Assembly (NCBI RefSeq): GCF_017795745.1
Contig: NZ_CP059067.1
Location: 5,332,001-5,396,000 of the forward strand
DNA: 64,000 nt
Direction of reading: 5' to 3'
Source of the DNA: Rhizobacter sp. AJA081-3
GTDB lineage: Bacteria; Pseudomonadota; Gammaproteobacteria; Burkholderiales; Burkholderiaceae_C
Under the pieces are notes generated by a model. The model did no database searches. It was not told where the DNA came from and saw only the letters and a list, made by a program, of their open reading frames with translations. A program made the position numbers and the translations under genes. Each line of letters starts with the position of its first letter. The stretch's first letter is position 1. Below are positions 2,027 through 12,660 of this stretch, piece after piece.

Positions 2027-3760
<1,734 letters not shown>

Positions 3761-3844: not shown

Positions 3845-4152
3845 TCAACCCTTCCTCATCACCAGCGCGAGCAGCGCCATCGAGGCGACGAAGCTGAACC
3901 AGATCGACGGTTCCTGCTCGAGGCTGAACCAGTCGATCATCTTTTCGCTCACTGCCACGAAGGCCAGGTTCACGTAGGCCGCGCCGAGCAGGCCGATGAA
4001 CAGGCGGTCGCCTCGCGTAGTCGCGATCGGCAGGAAGCCCTTGCGCTCCACGGTGGGGGACTTCAGTTCCCACACCGTCATGGCGATCAGCATCAGCACG
4101 ATGCTGGTGAAGAACACGGCGACGGGGAGGGTCCAGGCCATCCACTCGAACA

Positions 4153-4153
<1 letters not shown>
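3845..4153 (-). CDS. glpU: Small membrane subunit of glycerol ABC transporter (DUF2160 type)
   Basis: A 102-residue protein with a hydrophobic N-terminal segment (about residues 8-26), a second around 50-68 and a third around 84-98, so probably three membrane spans. It shares the TGATG junction with glpQ (one-base overlap of stop and start), showing translational coupling. Members of this small family are found almost only inside GlpSTPQUV operons. Their job in glycerol uptake is not known to me; an accessory membrane component is the simplest guess. The name follows the rhizobial operon order. Confidence 0.75.
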
Positions 4154-5838
<1,685 letters not shown>

Positions 5839-5842
<4 letters not shown>

Positions 5843-6870
5843 GCCACGAGCTCCTCGTTCTGGTAGTAGCAGGTGTGCGGGCCGACGATGGCCAGCCACA
5901 CGGCCTCGCCGACCTGGGGGATCGCCTGCTCGGTACTCAGGCGTGCGCGCACGAGTTGCCCGTCGCCGACCTGGGCCGTCACCAGCCAGTAGGTGCCGAC
6001 GTCCTGCGCGGCCTTCACCGTGCCGGGCACGGCGCCGGCCGCGTTCGGTGCGGCCAGCGTCACGTACTCCGGCCGCACGCCCAGCGTGGTGGCGCCAGCC
6101 GGCGCCCCGGGCGCCAGCGTCGCGGGCAGGAAATTCATGCCCGGCGAGCCGATGAAGTGGCCGACGAAGGTGTGCTGCGGGCGCTCGAACAGGTCGGAGG
6201 CGCTGCCCACCTGCACGGCGCGGCCGCGGGTCATCACCACCACCTGCTCGGCGAAGGTCAGTGCCTCCACCTGGTCGTGCGTGACGTACACCAGCGTCAG
6301 CTTGAGCTCGTGGTGGATCTGCTTGAGCTTGCGGCGCAGCTGCCACTTCAGGTGCGGGTCGATCACCGTCAGCGGCTCGTCGAAGAGCACGGCGCTCACG
6401 TCCTCTCGCACCAGGCCGCGGCCCAGCGAGATCTTCTGCTTGGCGTCGGCGGCCAGGCCGGCGGCGCGCATGTCGAGCTGGCCGCTCATCTCGAGCATCT
6501 CGGCGATGCGGCCCACGCGCTGCTTGATGCGATCGGGCGCGACGCCGCGGTTCTTCAGCGGGAAGGCGAGGTTCTCGGCCACGGTCATCGTGTCGTAGAT
6601 CACCGGGAACTGGAACACCTGCGCGATGTTGCGCTGCTGTGGTGACAGCCGGGTGACGTCGCGGCCGTCGAACTTCACCGTGCCCTGCGAGGGCACGACC
6701 AGGCCCGAGATGATGTTGAGCATGGTCGTCTTGCCGCAGCCCGAGGGGCCGAGCAGCGCATAGGCGCCGCCGTCCTCGAAGCTCATCTTCAGCGGCAGCA
6801 GCGCATAGTCCTCATCCTTCTGCGGGTTCGGGCGGTAGGCGTGCGCCAGGTCGAGATCGATGCGGGCCAT
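5839..6870 (-). CDS. glpT: Glycerol ABC transporter ATPase with degenerate signature motif
   Basis: 343 residues: an ABC domain (about 1-235) and a C-terminal TOBE-type regulatory domain as in MalK/UgpC. Walker A is GPSGCGKT (41-48), Walker B ends VLFDE (Glu165), and the H-loop His198 is intact in YVTHD. The LSGGQ signature is absent: the equivalent stretch reads LAADAKQKISLGR (139-151), so the signature serine and glycines are missing. GlpS, encoded just upstream, has the opposite defect. The gene starts one base after the glpS stop. Not to be confused with the enteric glycerol-3-phosphate antiporter also called GlpT. Confidence 0.88.
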
Positions 6871-6871
6871 G

Positions 6872-7936
6872 TCAGTGGCCTCCCGGTGCGACGAGCAGCT
6901 CGCCGGCCGAATCGAACACGTAGACCTGCGCCGGGTTCAGGTACAGCGTCACCGAGGAGCCGAGTTCGAACTGGTGCACGCCGGTGAGCTGCGCCACCAG
7001 CTCGCCCACCGGCGTGTCGACGTGCACGAAGGTGTCGGAGCCGGAGATCTCGGCCAGCTCCACGGTGCCGGGCAGCGCCAGGTCGCCGTCGCGGCCGTGC
7101 ACGCGCAGCGCGCTGGCGCGGATGCCGATGGTCAATGCCGAGCTGGAGGCCGCCGGCAGCGGCACCGAGAGGTTCACCCCGGCCGGCAGCGTGACGCCCA
7201 GCGTCGCGGCGGTGCCGGCGAGCAGGTTCATCGGCGGGTCGCTGAAGGCGCGCGCCACGCGCATCGACTTCGGGCGGCGGAACACCTCGGCCGTGGGCCC
7301 GTACTGCAGCAGCTCGCCGCCGTCGAGCACCGCGGTGTAGCCGCCCAGCAGCAGCGCTTCGGTGGGCTCGGTGGTGGCGTAGACGACGGTGGATTCGCCG
7401 GTGGCGAAGAGCTGCGAGAGCTCCTCGCGCAGCTCCTCACGGAGTTTGTAGTCGAGGTTGACCAGCGGCTCGTCGAGCAGCATCAGCGGCGCCTTCTTGG
7501 CCAGCGCACGCGCCAGTGCCACGCGCTGCTGCTGGCCGCCGGACAGCTCGGCCGGCAGGCGCTTCAGGAAGGGCTCGATGTGCAGCTTCTCGGCCAGTTC
7601 CTGGACGCGCTGCGCGATGCCCTGCTCGCCGCGCAGCTTCAGCGGCGAGGCGATGTTGTCGGCTACCGTCATCGACGGGTAGTTGATGAACTGCTGGTAG
7701 ACCATCGCCACGTTGCGCTCGCGCACCGGCATGCCGGTGACGTCGGTGCCGTCGGCCAGCACCCGCCCGGCGCTGGGTTTGTCCAGGCCGGCCATCACGC
7801 GCATCAGCGTGGTCTTGCCGGCCTGCGTGGCGCCGAGCAGCACCGTCACGGCGCGCGGCACCAGCTGCAGGTCGAGCGGGTAGAGGTGGGTCATCGCGCC
7901 CACCTTCTGCTCGATGCGTTCGAGCTTCAGTTCCAT
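6872..7936 (-). CDS. glpS: Glycerol ABC transporter ATPase lacking the H-loop histidine
   Basis: 354 residues: an ABC domain plus a C-terminal TOBE-type region. Walker A is GATQAGKTT (35-43), the signature LSGGQ is perfect (131-135), and Walker B LMLLDE is intact (Glu156). The switch region that normally reads TH reads YATTEPTEAL, so Thr189 replaces the H-loop histidine. It should pair with GlpT to make one complete and one crippled ATP site. The start at 7936 overlaps the end of glpD by ten bases. Role: powering glycerol import together with GlpT. Confidence 0.88.
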   Translation of the reverse strand: MELKLERIEQKVGAMTHLYPLDLQLVPRAVTVLLGATQAGKTTLMRVMAGLDKPSAGRVLADGTDVTGMPVRERNVAMVYQQFINYPSMTVADNIASPLKLRGEQGIAQRVQELAEKLHIEPFLKRLPAELSGGQQQRVALARALAKKAPLMLLDEPLVNLDYKLREELREELSQLFATGESTVVYATTEPTEALLLGGYTAVLDGGELLQYGPTAEVFRRPKSMRVARAFSDPPMNLLAGTAATLGVTLPAGVNLSVPLPAASSSALTIGIRASALRVHGRDGDLALPGTVELAEISGSDTFVHVDTPVGELVAQLTGVHQFELGSSVTLYLNPAQVYVFDSAGELLVAPGGH

Positions 7937-9513
7937 GCCTTCTCCGTCGGGGCCGAGGCCACGTTGCCCCAGTGCCGCCGGCACCAGTCGTCCACCGCGG
8001 CGCGGTGGTGATCTTCGTAATGCAGGCCCAGCTTGCTGCGACGCCACAGCACATCGTCGGCACACCGTGCCCATTCCTCGTCGTGCAGGAAGGCCAGCTC
8101 GGCCTCGTACAGGCCCGGCGCCACCTCGGCGCCCAGGGGCTGGGAGAGCCAGGCTGCAGCACGCTGGCCGTAGGCGCGCGCGATGCGGCGCACCATCGGC
8201 GTGGGCAGGGTCGGGTGGGCCAGCGCCAGCGCCTGAACGAAGCGGCTGAAGTCGGTGTCGGGGCGCTGTGCGGCGCCGATGGTCGGGCTGAGGTCGCCGC
8301 CGGGCAGGAAGGCGTGTTCGGTCCAGGCACCGCGCGCCGCGCGCAGCGGCGCGGCGAGCAGGTCGGCAGCCTCCTCCGCCAGCTTGCGGAAGGTGGTGAT
8401 CTTGCCGCCCCACACGTTGAGCAGCGGTGCCTGCGCGGTGTCGAGCTCGAGCGAGTAGTCGCGCGTCACTGCGGACGGGTCGCCCGATTCGTCGTCGAGC
8501 AGCGGGCGCACGCCGGAGTAGCTCCACACCACGTCGGCCGGTGTGACGCTGCGTGCGAAGTAGCGGCTGGCCTGCTCGCACAGGTAGGCGGTCTCGTCGG
8601 CATCGATGCGTGCTTCGCCGATGGCCCCGCGGTGCTCCACGTCGGTGGTGCCGATCAGCGTGAACTCGCCCTCGTAGGGGATGGCGAAGATGATGCGCTT
8701 GTCGGGGTTCTGGAAGATGTAGGCGTGGTCGTGGTCGAACATCTTCGGCACGACGATGTGGCTGCCCTTCACCAGGCGCAGCGACTTGCGCTCCGGCGCA
8801 TGCGCGTGCTCGGCGAGGAACTGCGCCGCCCAGGGGCCGGCGGCATTGACGAGCGCGCGCGCGGTCACCGTGCGCTGACCACCCTGCGCCGACTGCAGCG
8901 TGGCCTGCCATTGGGTGGCGCCGCGCTTGGCGTCGACGCAGGCGGTGCGCGTCAGCACGGTGGCGCCACGCGCCTTCGCGTCCAGCGCGTTGAGCACCAC
9001 CAGGCGCGCGTCGTCGACCCAGCCGTCGGAATAGACGAAGCCCTTGCTGAACTGCTTCTTCAGCGGCGCGCCGGCGGCGTGCGTGCGCAGGTCCACCGTG
9101 GTCGAACCGGGCAGCACCTCGCGGCGCGCCAGGTGGTCATAGAGGAACAGGCCGGCGCGGATCATCCACACCGGGCGCATGCCGGGGTCGTGCGGCATCA
9201 CGAAACGCAGCGGCCACATGATGTGCGGCGCGCTCTTGAGCAGCACCTCGCGCTCTGCGAGCGCCTTGCGCACCAGCGAGAACTCGTAGTACTCGAGGTA
9301 GCGCAGCCCGCCGTGGATCAGCTTGGTCGACGAAGACGAGGTGTGCGAGGCAAGGTCGTCCTTCTCCGCCACCACGACCTTCAGGCCGCGGCCGGCGAGG
9401 TCGCGCGCGATGCCGGCACCGTTGATGCCGCCGCCCACGACGAGCACGTCGCAGTCGATCGCGGCATCGGCGCCGACGCTGTCGCGCCAGCCTTCGGGGC
9501 GGGGATGGTTCAA
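7927..9513 (-). CDS. glpD: Aerobic glycerol-3-phosphate dehydrogenase
   Basis: FAD-dependent enzyme that oxidises glycerol-3-phosphate to dihydroxyacetone phosphate at the inner membrane and feeds electrons to quinone. The FAD dinucleotide motif DVLVVGGGINGAGIARDL lies close to the N-terminus, and STKLIHGGLRYLE is the family hallmark. A TTG at 9513 is chosen as start because GGAG lies five bases upstream and it gives 528 residues, near the usual length of about 500. An ATG at 9636 would add 41 basic residues unlike GlpD and would overlie the probable GlpR operator. First gene of the operon, divergent from glpR. Confidence 0.9.
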   Translation of the reverse strand: MNHPRPEGWRDSVGADAAIDCDVLVVGGGINGAGIARDLAGRGLKVVVAEKDDLASHTSSSSTKLIHGGLRYLEYYEFSLVRKALAEREVLLKSAPHIMWPLRFVMPHDPGMRPVWMIRAGLFLYDHLARREVLPGSTTVDLRTHAAGAPLKKQFSKGFVYSDGWVDDARLVVLNALDAKARGATVLTRTACVDAKRGATQWQATLQSAQGGQRTVTARALVNAAGPWAAQFLAEHAHAPERKSLRLVKGSHIVVPKMFDHDHAYIFQNPDKRIIFAIPYEGEFTLIGTTDVEHRGAIGEARIDADETAYLCEQASRYFARSVTPADVVWSYSGVRPLLDDESGDPSAVTRDYSLELDTAQAPLLNVWGGKITTFRKLAEEAADLLAAPLRAARGAWTEHAFLPGGDLSPTIGAAQRPDTDFSRFVQALALAHPTLPTPMVRRIARAYGQRAAAWLSQPLGAEVAPGLYEAELAFLHDEEWARCADDVLWRRSKLGLHYEDHHRAAVDDWCRRHWGNVASAPTEKAWN

Positions 9514-9570
9514 GCAATCTCCGGGGGTGGCGCCGGTGCGCGTCCGGCGGGTTCGCTCGCTGTCTTGAGC

Positions 9571-9591
9571 AATGTTCGTTTTAGTTCGTTT
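9571..9591. promoter_or_regulatory. Probable GlpR operator, tandem GTTCGTTT repeats
   Basis: In the glpD-glpR intergenic region, GTTCGTTT occurs at 9574-9581 and again at 9584-9591, a ten-base period that places both on one helix face. The first copy continues a leftward ATGTTCG, which equals one half-site of the known enteric GlpR operator. A related GTTCGCTC lies at 9551. DeoR-family repressors commonly bind such direct repeats. Control of both divergent units is inferred from position. Confidence 0.55.
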
Positions 9592-9687
9592 GCGCGCTTC
9601 TTTTTTCTTTTTAGCCCAGACTCGAACCCAAAGCAAGATGGGTAAGCCCTGTGGTTTTCCCGGGATGGCTCGCTACGCTGGCAGGCC

Positions 9688-10451
9688 ATGACGCCCAATC
9701 CCCGCCAGTCCGACCTGCTCGACGAGGTCCGCGTGCGCGGTTCCGTGTCGGTGGAAGCGCTGGCCGACAAGTTCGGCGTGACGCTGCAGACGGTGCGTCG
9801 CGACGTCAAGCTGCTCGCCGACGAAGGCCTGCTCGCGCGCTTCCACGGCGGAGTGCGCGTGCCCTCGTCGACCACGGAGAACATCGCCTACCGCCAGCGC
9901 CAGCAGCTCAACGAGCAGGCCAAGCAGCGCATCGCGCGCGCCGTCGCGAAGGCCGTGCCGGAGAACTGCTCGCTGATCATCAACATCGGCACCACCACCG
10001 AGGCGATCGCGCGCGAGCTGCTGCGCCACAAGGGCCTGCGCGTGATCACCAACAACCTGAACGTGGCGGCGATCCTGTCCGACAACCCCGACTGCGAGGT
10101 CATCGTCGCCGGCGGCGTGGTGCGCTCGCGCGACCGCGGCATCGTCGGCGAAGCAACGGTGGACTTCATCGCGCAGTTCAAGGTCGACATCGCGCTGATC
10201 GGCATCTCGGCGATCGAGGCCGACGGCACGCTGCGCGACTTCGACTACCGCGAGGTGACGGTGGCGCGCGCCATCATCGAGCACTCGCGCGAGGTGTGGT
10301 TGGCTGCGGACCACAGCAAGTTCAACCGCCCGGCGATGGTGGAGCTCGCGCGGCTCGACCAGATCGACGTGCTCTACACCGACGCCGAGCCGCCCGGGCC
10401 CTTCCCGGCCCTGCTGGCCGAGGCCGGCGTCACCTGCCACGTGACTGCGCC

Positions 10452-10455
<4 letters not shown>
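9688..10455 (+). CDS. glpR: GlpR, DeoR-family repressor of the glycerol regulon
   Basis: 255 residues: an N-terminal DeoR winged helix (about 5-58, with the recognition stretch [10 protein letters not shown]) and a C-terminal ISOCOT-like sugar-phosphate sensor domain with the INIGTTTE phosphate loop and the GGVVRSRD segment. Known GlpR proteins repress glycerol genes and are released by glycerol-3-phosphate. It is transcribed away from glpD, and its stop overlaps the glpK start as ATGA, so regulator and kinase are translated together. The family call is firm and the effector is inferred from context. Confidence 0.9.
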
Positions 10456-11948
<1,493 letters not shown>

Positions 11949-11975
11949 GCCGCGACCGATCCACCGCGTTTGCGT

Positions 11976-12476
11976 TCACTTGACCGGGCTGGCTTCGGCT
12001 GCCGCGGTGGTGCCTGCGGCCGGCGCGGCAGGCGCTGCCGGAGCGGGTGCTGCGGCGGACGCGGCGGGCGCGGGCGGTGCCAGCGTCGCCACCTTGCCGA
12101 GCTGCACGGTGATGATGTCCGGGTAGTCGTAGGCGGCGCCGGTGGACATGTCCACTCCGGCACCGATCACGCCGCCGAACAGGATGTTGCCGAACGCCAT
12201 GCCCTTGGTCGACGACTTGACGGTCAGGATGCCGGGGTCGGTGCCGTCGAGGGCACAGTTGACCAGCAGGTCGTTGTAGCTGCGGCGCACCGTCACCGAA
12301 CCGGGCGCCGTGACGTACCAGGCGCCCTTGTCGTTGGTCAGCGAGCACTTGGCGCCGGGCGTATCGGTTCCCGACCTCTGCGTCACGACAGACAGCGACT
12401 GATTCTGACCGCTCACGATGGATGCGCAGCCCGTGGTCATGACCGCGCAGACGGCGGCGATGCCGATTTTCAGCAT
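11976..12476 (-). CDS. Putative lipoprotein of unknown function with Ala/Pro tail
   Basis: 166 residues. The N-terminus is a short hydrophobic signal ending TTGC, with Cys17 the likely lipidated residue, followed by ASIVSG, a start shared by many small proteobacterial lipoproteins. A beta-rich middle with two further cysteines (AKCSL and LVNC) and a Gly-rich hydrophobic stretch (AFGNILFGGVIGAGVD) precede a low-complexity Ala/Pro tail of about 35 residues. A GGGGAG ribosome binding site supports the ATG. It converges on glpK across a 27-base gap. I do not recognise a specific function. Confidence 0.7.
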   Translation of the reverse strand: MLKIGIAAVCAVMTTGCASIVSGQNQSLSVVTQRSGTDTPGAKCSLTNDKGAWYVTAPGSVTVRRSYNDLLVNCALDGTDPGILTVKSSTKGMAFGNILFGGVIGAGVDMSTGAAYDYPDIITVQLGKVATLAPPAPAASAAAPAPAAPAAPAAGTTAAAEASPVK

Positions 12477-12660
12477 GAAACTCCCCCCAGGGTTCGTTGG
12501 TTGTGACCGGCACTCTAGTCGCGGCTGCGGTGCCGGACATCCGCGCTTACGCGCGGTGAGTGCACAAAGTCGCGCTCTGCTCGCTCGCCACTGCTGACAC
12601 CACGTTGTCAGCAGCCTCTGCGCAACATGGCCGCTCCTGTCACTGCCCAAGGAGCACCCC

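Follow-up and report, generated by a model that had tools for sequence, protein, structure and literature searches.

The window, by which we mean the whole 64,000-nucleotide stretch that was analysed, carries on its minus strand the genes glpD, glpS, glpT, glpP, glpQ, glpU and glpV, in that order, with glpR and glpK divergent from them on the plus strand. Two of these genes, glpS (6872-7936) and glpT (5839-6870), encode MalK-type ATPase subunits of 354 and 343 aa and are separated by a single base. The glpT stop codon overlaps the start of glpP (4958-5842), which encodes a permease of 294 aa, and glpQ (4153-4965) encodes a second permease of 270 aa; an EAA loop is present in both. The transporter genes are completed by glpU (3845-4159, its start being approximate), which encodes a small membrane protein with the DUF2160 domain (PF09928) and served as our operon marker, and by glpV (2027-3760), which encodes an extracellular solute-binding protein (PF01547). 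The glycerol-3-phosphate dehydrogenase gene glpD (7927-9636) overlaps glpS; because its family match begins only at residue 61 of the ORF, its true start probably lies later than the ORF start. On the plus strand, glpR (9688-10455) encodes a DeoR/GlpR-type regulator whose best NCBIfam match falls below the cut-off, and glpK (10452-11948) encodes glycerol kinase. The window thus holds the full GlpSTPQUV gene set, S, T, P, Q, U (DUF2160) and V, with glpD, glpR and glpK nearby. Just past the 3′ end of the operon, a plus-strand ORF at 559-1959 contains what looks, by eye, like an HD-type stretch.

GlpS and GlpT both match PF00005 and a C-terminal TOBE_2 domain above cut-off. Their fold models (pLDDT 91.0 and 89.5, respectively) match MalK-type entries in the PDB, with Foldseek TM-scores to MalK, taken by query length, of up to 0.91 for GlpS and up to 0.87 for GlpT. 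Domain architecture and a MalK-like fold place both proteins with the MalK-type (CUT1) ATPases, but a complete ATPase motif set within each subunit is absent from all 84 pairs described below. Because GlpS lacks the H-loop His and GlpT lacks LSGGQ in 84/84 of these pairs, the two proteins are divergent MalK-type (CUT1) relatives rather than standard members. The best NCBIfam match of each is UgpC (PRK11650), yet scores of 239 bits for GlpS and 262 bits for GlpT against a cut-off of 432 leave both outside that family. Searches of the PDB returned no GlpST structure, the best matches being other MalK-type proteins.

Motif changes in GlpS and GlpT and their conservation

Motif positions were set by alignment to E. 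coli MalK, in which the GlpS row has three additional residues, its position 192 being residue 189 of GlpS; all coordinates in this paragraph refer to the minus strand. GlpS has an LSGGQ signature (residues 131-135; 7532-7546), which completes an intact site together with GlpT, and carries Thr189 (codon 7370-7372) at the position of the H-loop histidine, MalK His192. GlpT has that histidine, His198 (codon 6277-6279), which forms the H-loop of the intact site, and carries LAADA (139-143; 6442-6456) in place of LSGGQ (MalK 134-138), with Asp142 at the second Gly. A preliminary description of this DNA had credited GlpS with a perfect LSGGQ and Thr189 at the H-loop position, and GlpT with the loss of LSGGQ and the retention of His198; alignment to MalK proved it exact to the residue on both proteins. 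In addition, GlpS has Val12 (7901-7903) at the aromatic A-loop position (MalK Trp13) and a Walker A motif, GATQAGKTT (35-43; 7808-7834), in which the Lys is present and T-Q replaces MalK S38-G39, and the D-loop of GlpT reads T-V-I-D (168-171; 6358-6369) where MalK has S-N-L-D.

Conservation was followed through 398 genomes of the window's phylum, Pseudomonadota, as judged from the nearest named relatives. Strong matches to PF09928 occur in 84 of these, the window's own genome included, and GlpS and GlpT are both present at each of the 84 loci (our own and 83 others). The two ATPase genes come first, on one strand with the permeases, at every locus; gene order by ORF start is S-T-P-Q in 80 and S-T-Q-P in 4. 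A marker bias from gathering loci through DUF2160 was considered and set aside, as the DUF2160, GlpT (E <= 1e-105) and GlpS (E <= 1e-100) profiles, run separately, picked out the identical 84 genomes. At these cut-offs, GlpS without GlpT, or the reverse, was not found among the 398 genomes. Because glpU likewise occurs in exactly the 84 of 398 genomes that hold both ATPases, its product probably belongs to the transporter as a constant component.

Across the 84 pairs, the H-loop position of GlpS is Thr in 79, Ser in 5 and His in none, and LSGGQ is present throughout; GlpT has the H-loop His in all 84 and LSGGQ in none, both signature glycines being missing every time. The five Ser-type GlpS proteins share a Q-loop variant, LVHQFF, and their GlpT partners share the signature LSPDNKQK. 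At the A-loop position, GlpS has Val in 78/84 and an aromatic residue in a single case, and GlpT has Tyr in 84/84. In the GlpS Walker A, the position of MalK S38 is Thr in all 84 rows and that of G39 is replaced in 79, the Lys being unchanged; indeed, the Walker A Lys, the Q-loop Gln and the Walker B Asp-Glu are present in every GlpS and every GlpT (84/84 each). Column identity averages 65% in GlpS and 68% in GlpT, against 99% at GlpT Asp142 and 100% at TVID and at Lys144 and Gln145. Joint conservation of the two losses across operons, which had been put forward as the way to check the preliminary description, holds in 84/84 pairs, and a pair with canonical motifs in both proteins, which was to count as its refutation, was not found among the 84. 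Chance, or an artefact of one genome, is ruled out by a pattern of this extent.

A scan of named genomes gave a similar picture within the best 80 of 590 relatives, with the proviso that its search pattern, [LM]FDEPLTV, presupposes part of the GlpT D-loop. These best 80 comprise 76 Betaproteobacteria, 1 member of the Hydrogenophilia, 1 unplaced member of the Pseudomonadota and 2 Thermodesulfobacteriota (MAGs). In all 80, GlpT has a non-LSGGQ signature together with the His; GlpS was recovered at 78 loci (2/80 gave none), with Thr at the H-loop in 78/78 and LSGGQ in 77/77, one row lacking the part from Walker A to the D-loop. A member of the 84 recurs among the named loci as L142, and this known duplicate also stands within the 161 pairs tallied below. 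We looked for intermediate pairs and found none: the lowest-scoring of the 84 pairs (L083, genome G386) and the two Thermodesulfobacteriota pairs show the same kind of defects. The GlpT signature of the former, LGAADKQ, is non-canonical and lacks the Asp that the other 83 share.

Six weak DUF2160 matches (L085-L090, about 10 kb each) lie in six genomes that also hold a strong match. Each of these loci has one GlpS/GlpT-like ATPase, canonical in 6/6, and they were excluded from the pair counts; they perhaps represent a related importer with a small membrane protein of its own.

Distribution over the two composite sites and ancestry

In ABC dimers, the D-loop reaches across to the other subunit's site. 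Each site otherwise combines the A-loop, Walker A/B, Q-loop and H-loop of one subunit with the signature of the other (PMC7756269). Assigned in this way, the departures in the GlpS A-loop, Walker A and H-loop and those in the GlpT signature and D-loop all fall on the site formed by the GlpS core and the GlpT signature; three of them, in the GlpS A-loop, the GlpS Walker A and the GlpT D-loop, come on top of the two first described and lie on the same composite site. Departures are thus confined to one composite site, the sole exception being a small change on the intact one, where the D-loop Ser of GlpS is Ala or Val in 84/84. This column (MalK 162) stands outside our list of 21 contact positions; since it also varies among normal relatives, neither protein was scored for it.

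The tally, in which the accepted residues were chosen after the motifs had been seen, covers 161 pairs, namely the 84 and 77 named ones (one GlpS row without Walker A and two loci without GlpS were dropped). The site made of the GlpT core and the GlpS signature shows 0-1 departures at the 21 positions, whereas the site made of the GlpS core and the GlpT signature shows 7-9; restricted to the 84 pairs, the tally averages 0.01 and 8.19 departures, respectively. The division into one normal and one doubly degenerate site had been anticipated in the preliminary description, which understated the second; the asymmetric importer that it proposed is supported by the sequences.

Unlike GlpST, MalK and UgpC show 0 departures at these positions, as do 11 MalK/PotA-like ATPases of the window's own genome and the six ATPases of L085-L090. 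The 11 controls were hand-chosen from 35 non-redundant ATPases, which also include GlpS, GlpT and an ATPase termed b, treated below. Of the remaining 21, which are more distant, L221, L228 and L229 have an odd signature and L231 is cut short. Another of these 21, L252 (G000:C1:352474-353049), has Thr at the H-loop His (FVTTD) alongside a normal LSGGM signature. Since L252, L221, L228 and L229 each carry one such change, single motif changes are not unique to GlpS and GlpT; it is the paired pattern that stands out.

The same genome contains a second adjacent pair of MalK-type ATPases, a and b (L262; G000:C1 1525441-1527604). Homologues of b were found at E <= 1e-95 in 24 of the 398 genomes, our own included, and two ATPases lie side by side at all 24 loci. 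This importer likewise has two MalK-type ATPases and, in the window's genome, ORFs that by eye resemble two permeases and a small membrane protein, but it is far milder than GlpST: a and b both have the His in 24/24, a has LSGG, and the signature of b is only mildly changed, being mostly LAGGD or LSGGD (Ser-Gly-Gly in 6/24, Gly-Gly in 21/24). In this region (G000:C1:1519000-1532000, about 4830-12625), the membrane-like ORF of ~62 aa sits between a permease and the ATPases and has no Pfam match above cut-off, and the importer is adjoined by an ORF that is presumably DhaK-like.

In a tree of 96 rows thinned by identity (30 GlpS, 30 GlpT, 10 a, 10 b and 16 others), GlpS, GlpT, a and b each form one clade, and the stem branches are long, at 1.36 changes per column for GlpS and 1.54 for GlpT. 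Because all sampled GlpS and all sampled GlpT fall into single clades, the simplest reading is one origin followed by retention rather than repeated coevolution, both defects being single, old events. GlpT groups with b with support of 95/79; a grouping of GlpS with a is absent from the best tree (AU p 0.396), and one of GlpS with GlpT gives p 0.287 in the AU test. The link between the a/b pair and GlpST is in this sense partly supported, and of all relatives met, the pair would come closest to a "before" state. We do not claim a single shared duplication for all four proteins, because the placements of GlpS with a and of GlpS with GlpT are neither shown nor rejected.

Proposed mechanism and alternatives

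The substrate is most likely glycerol, to judge from the neighbouring genes (63/84 loci, with short flanks, include an ORF resembling GlpD, GlpR or GlpK) and from the Rhizobium homologue, glycerol transport by GlpSTPQUV having been reported in R. leguminosarum (PMC7912956). In Cupriavidus metallidurans, the homologue is described as not essential for growth on glycerol, and its derepression as raising zinc and cadmium resistance (PMC7912956), an odd effect for a glycerol importer.

We infer, and consider probable, that the motor of the GlpPQ permease is an obligate heterodimer of two MalK-type subunits, GlpS and GlpT, with one hydrolytic site, and that the cargo is most likely glycerol. The canonical site, in which the A-loop, Walker A/B, Q-loop and H-loop of GlpT meet the LSGGQ of GlpS, would carry out hydrolysis, whereas the second, in which the Walker A/B and Thr189 of GlpS meet LxADxKQ and TVID of GlpT, retains residues for holding Mg-ATP, lacks those for firing it and would serve as a non-hydrolytic clamp or structural site. 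The model draws on the motif pattern common to all pairs, the joint occurrence of the genes on one strand, the tally of the two sites, the fixation of GlpT Asp142 (83/84), TVID (84/84) and a GlpS Thr or Ser (84/84), the loss of ATPase activity in MalK H192R, the match of the fold models to MalK and the GlpD-, GlpR- or GlpK-like neighbours. At the degenerate site of CFTR, ATP is reported to stay bound for minutes (PMC7756269), and GlpS may, by analogy, hold ATP in a CFTR-like manner. The degenerate site of ABCC1 is said to depend little on its His (PMC7756269), which counts against the model, as do the D-loop change of GlpS on the intact site and the single origin of the conserved pattern. The second site may also hydrolyse ATP slowly, since GlpS retains the Walker B Glu. 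Moreover, Asp142 of GlpT, which is at the place of CFTR G551D and would lie near the γ-phosphate of GlpS-bound ATP, fits a tight clamp poorly, so that the site may be a looser one.

A stricter version, which we put forward tentatively and with somewhat less than even confidence, is a single-catalytic-site importer. Here the obligate heterodimer would spend one ATP per glycerol rather than two; the GlpS site, where a Thr/Ser hydroxyl substitutes for the His and the second Gly of the signature is Asp, would be a lasting nucleotide clamp; and the subunits would have paired before the site was lost, an order hinted at by the milder a/b relative.

Alternatively, both sites could hydrolyse ATP, Thr189 of GlpS and LxADxKQ of GlpT acting as working substitutes in a functionally symmetric pump. 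We consider this improbable. The Walker A Lys, Q-loop Gln and Walker B Asp-Glu of GlpS are intact in 84/84, several of the replacing residues are themselves conserved, and L252 likewise has Thr at the H-loop position, all points in its favour, but a GlpT signature devoid of both glycines in every one of the 84 pairs speaks against it. The H-loop literature cuts both ways: changing MalK His192, the counterpart of GlpS Thr189, to Arg leaves <2% of the ATPase activity, and comparable damage is described for His changes in HisP and HlyB, whereas the results for the H-loop His of Pdr5 are called controversial (PMC6222333), which favours the symmetric pump and counts against a single hydrolytic site.

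More improbable still is a motor made of a GlpS or GlpT homodimer, or of either protein with another MalK-type ATPase, the second gene being regulatory. MalK-type ATPases are often homodimers, a point in favour of this arrangement. A partner from elsewhere has a parallel in MsmX, reported to serve several permeases (PMC11466899). Yet His plus Ser-Gly-Gly occurs in either homodimer in 0/161 pairs, GlpT2 being without the signature and GlpS2 without the His, and the two genes were not found apart in the 398 genomes at the cut-offs used; the homodimeric motor named in the preliminary description as a refuting observation was not found in these pairs, neither homodimer having a complete site.

Relaxed decay in a little-used transporter is hardly credible: the long stem branches of GlpS and GlpT and the variability of some altered columns (commonest residue 69% at GlpT 140 and 36% at GlpT 143, and 43%, 79% and 55% at three GlpS Walker A positions) would suit it, but GlpT Asp142 and Val169 and GlpS Thr189, the three that were ranked, are in the top third of columns by conservation in their respective proteins, the pattern extends across the phylum sample and to two Thermodesulfobacteriota MAGs, and in Rhizobium leguminosarum glycerol uptake is reported to require the homologue (PMC7912956); the motif losses are probably not decay.

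Comparison with known systems

The predicted heterodimer, with one hydrolytic and one clamp or structural site, can be set beside several known transporters. By gene content, the window's operon is like GlpSTPQUV of R. leguminosarum VF39 and Rmet_2229-2234 of C. metallidurans CH34, each a set of six genes that lies close to glpR/glpD/glpK and encodes a binding protein, a small membrane protein and two each of ATPases and permeases; the passages of the source that deal with these systems make no mention of ATP-site asymmetry (PMC7912956). Degenerate-site exporters and CFTR resemble GlpST in that one of their two composite sites is canonical and the other degenerate. In the human proteins, the signature is changed in all degenerate sites and the H-loop in those of TAP (ABCB2/B3) and CFTR, and the second most frequent change is that of the Walker B Glu (PMC7756269), which GlpS retains. 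Because GlpS and GlpT belong to a MalK-type importer, the likeness is probably convergent.

Among importers, DppD/DppF, which takes up dipeptides in E. coli, is not a MalK-type TOBE protein. It resembles GlpST in having two different ATPases, of which only DppF binds an ATP analogue without DppA, and differs in that two ATP analogues bind with DppA and in that no degenerate motif is named in the passages concerned (PMC12136057). RbsA and NupO are importers with one degenerate site, but their NBDs are fused and their second Walker A lacks the Lys (PMC11466899), which is present in GlpS. The preliminary description had held that such asymmetry is little described in MalK-like importers. This fits the literature searched, which consisted mostly of titles and abstracts, with most subscription journals outside it, and yielded no degenerate site in GlpS/GlpT or in any MalK-type heterodimer; asymmetric importers as such, however, are not unknown, as RbsA and NupO demonstrate. 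What is known, then, are degenerate sites in exporters, RbsA and NupO, and what appears, within the literature searched, to be new is a conserved case in a MalK-type heterodimer importer: a transporter of the MalK class that is common in the sample (84/398 genomes) would have lost one site and retained the loss.

GlpST shares with E. coli MalFGK2 and UgpBAEC the fold, the ABC and TOBE domains and the EAA loops of the permeases. MalK and UgpC work as homodimers, and mutating one of the two MalK subunits reportedly impairs transport severely, to go by the title of Davidson and Sharma 1997; MalFGK2, said to be impaired by damage to a single subunit, stands in contrast to other ABC proteins that manage with one working site. 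In P-glycoprotein, for instance, one working site can suffice (PMC4846820). Spending one ATP rather than two on a three-carbon substrate may be a matter of economy, and GlpST would let nature itself show what number of ATP molecules an importer must spend per substrate and whether the second site is a clamp.
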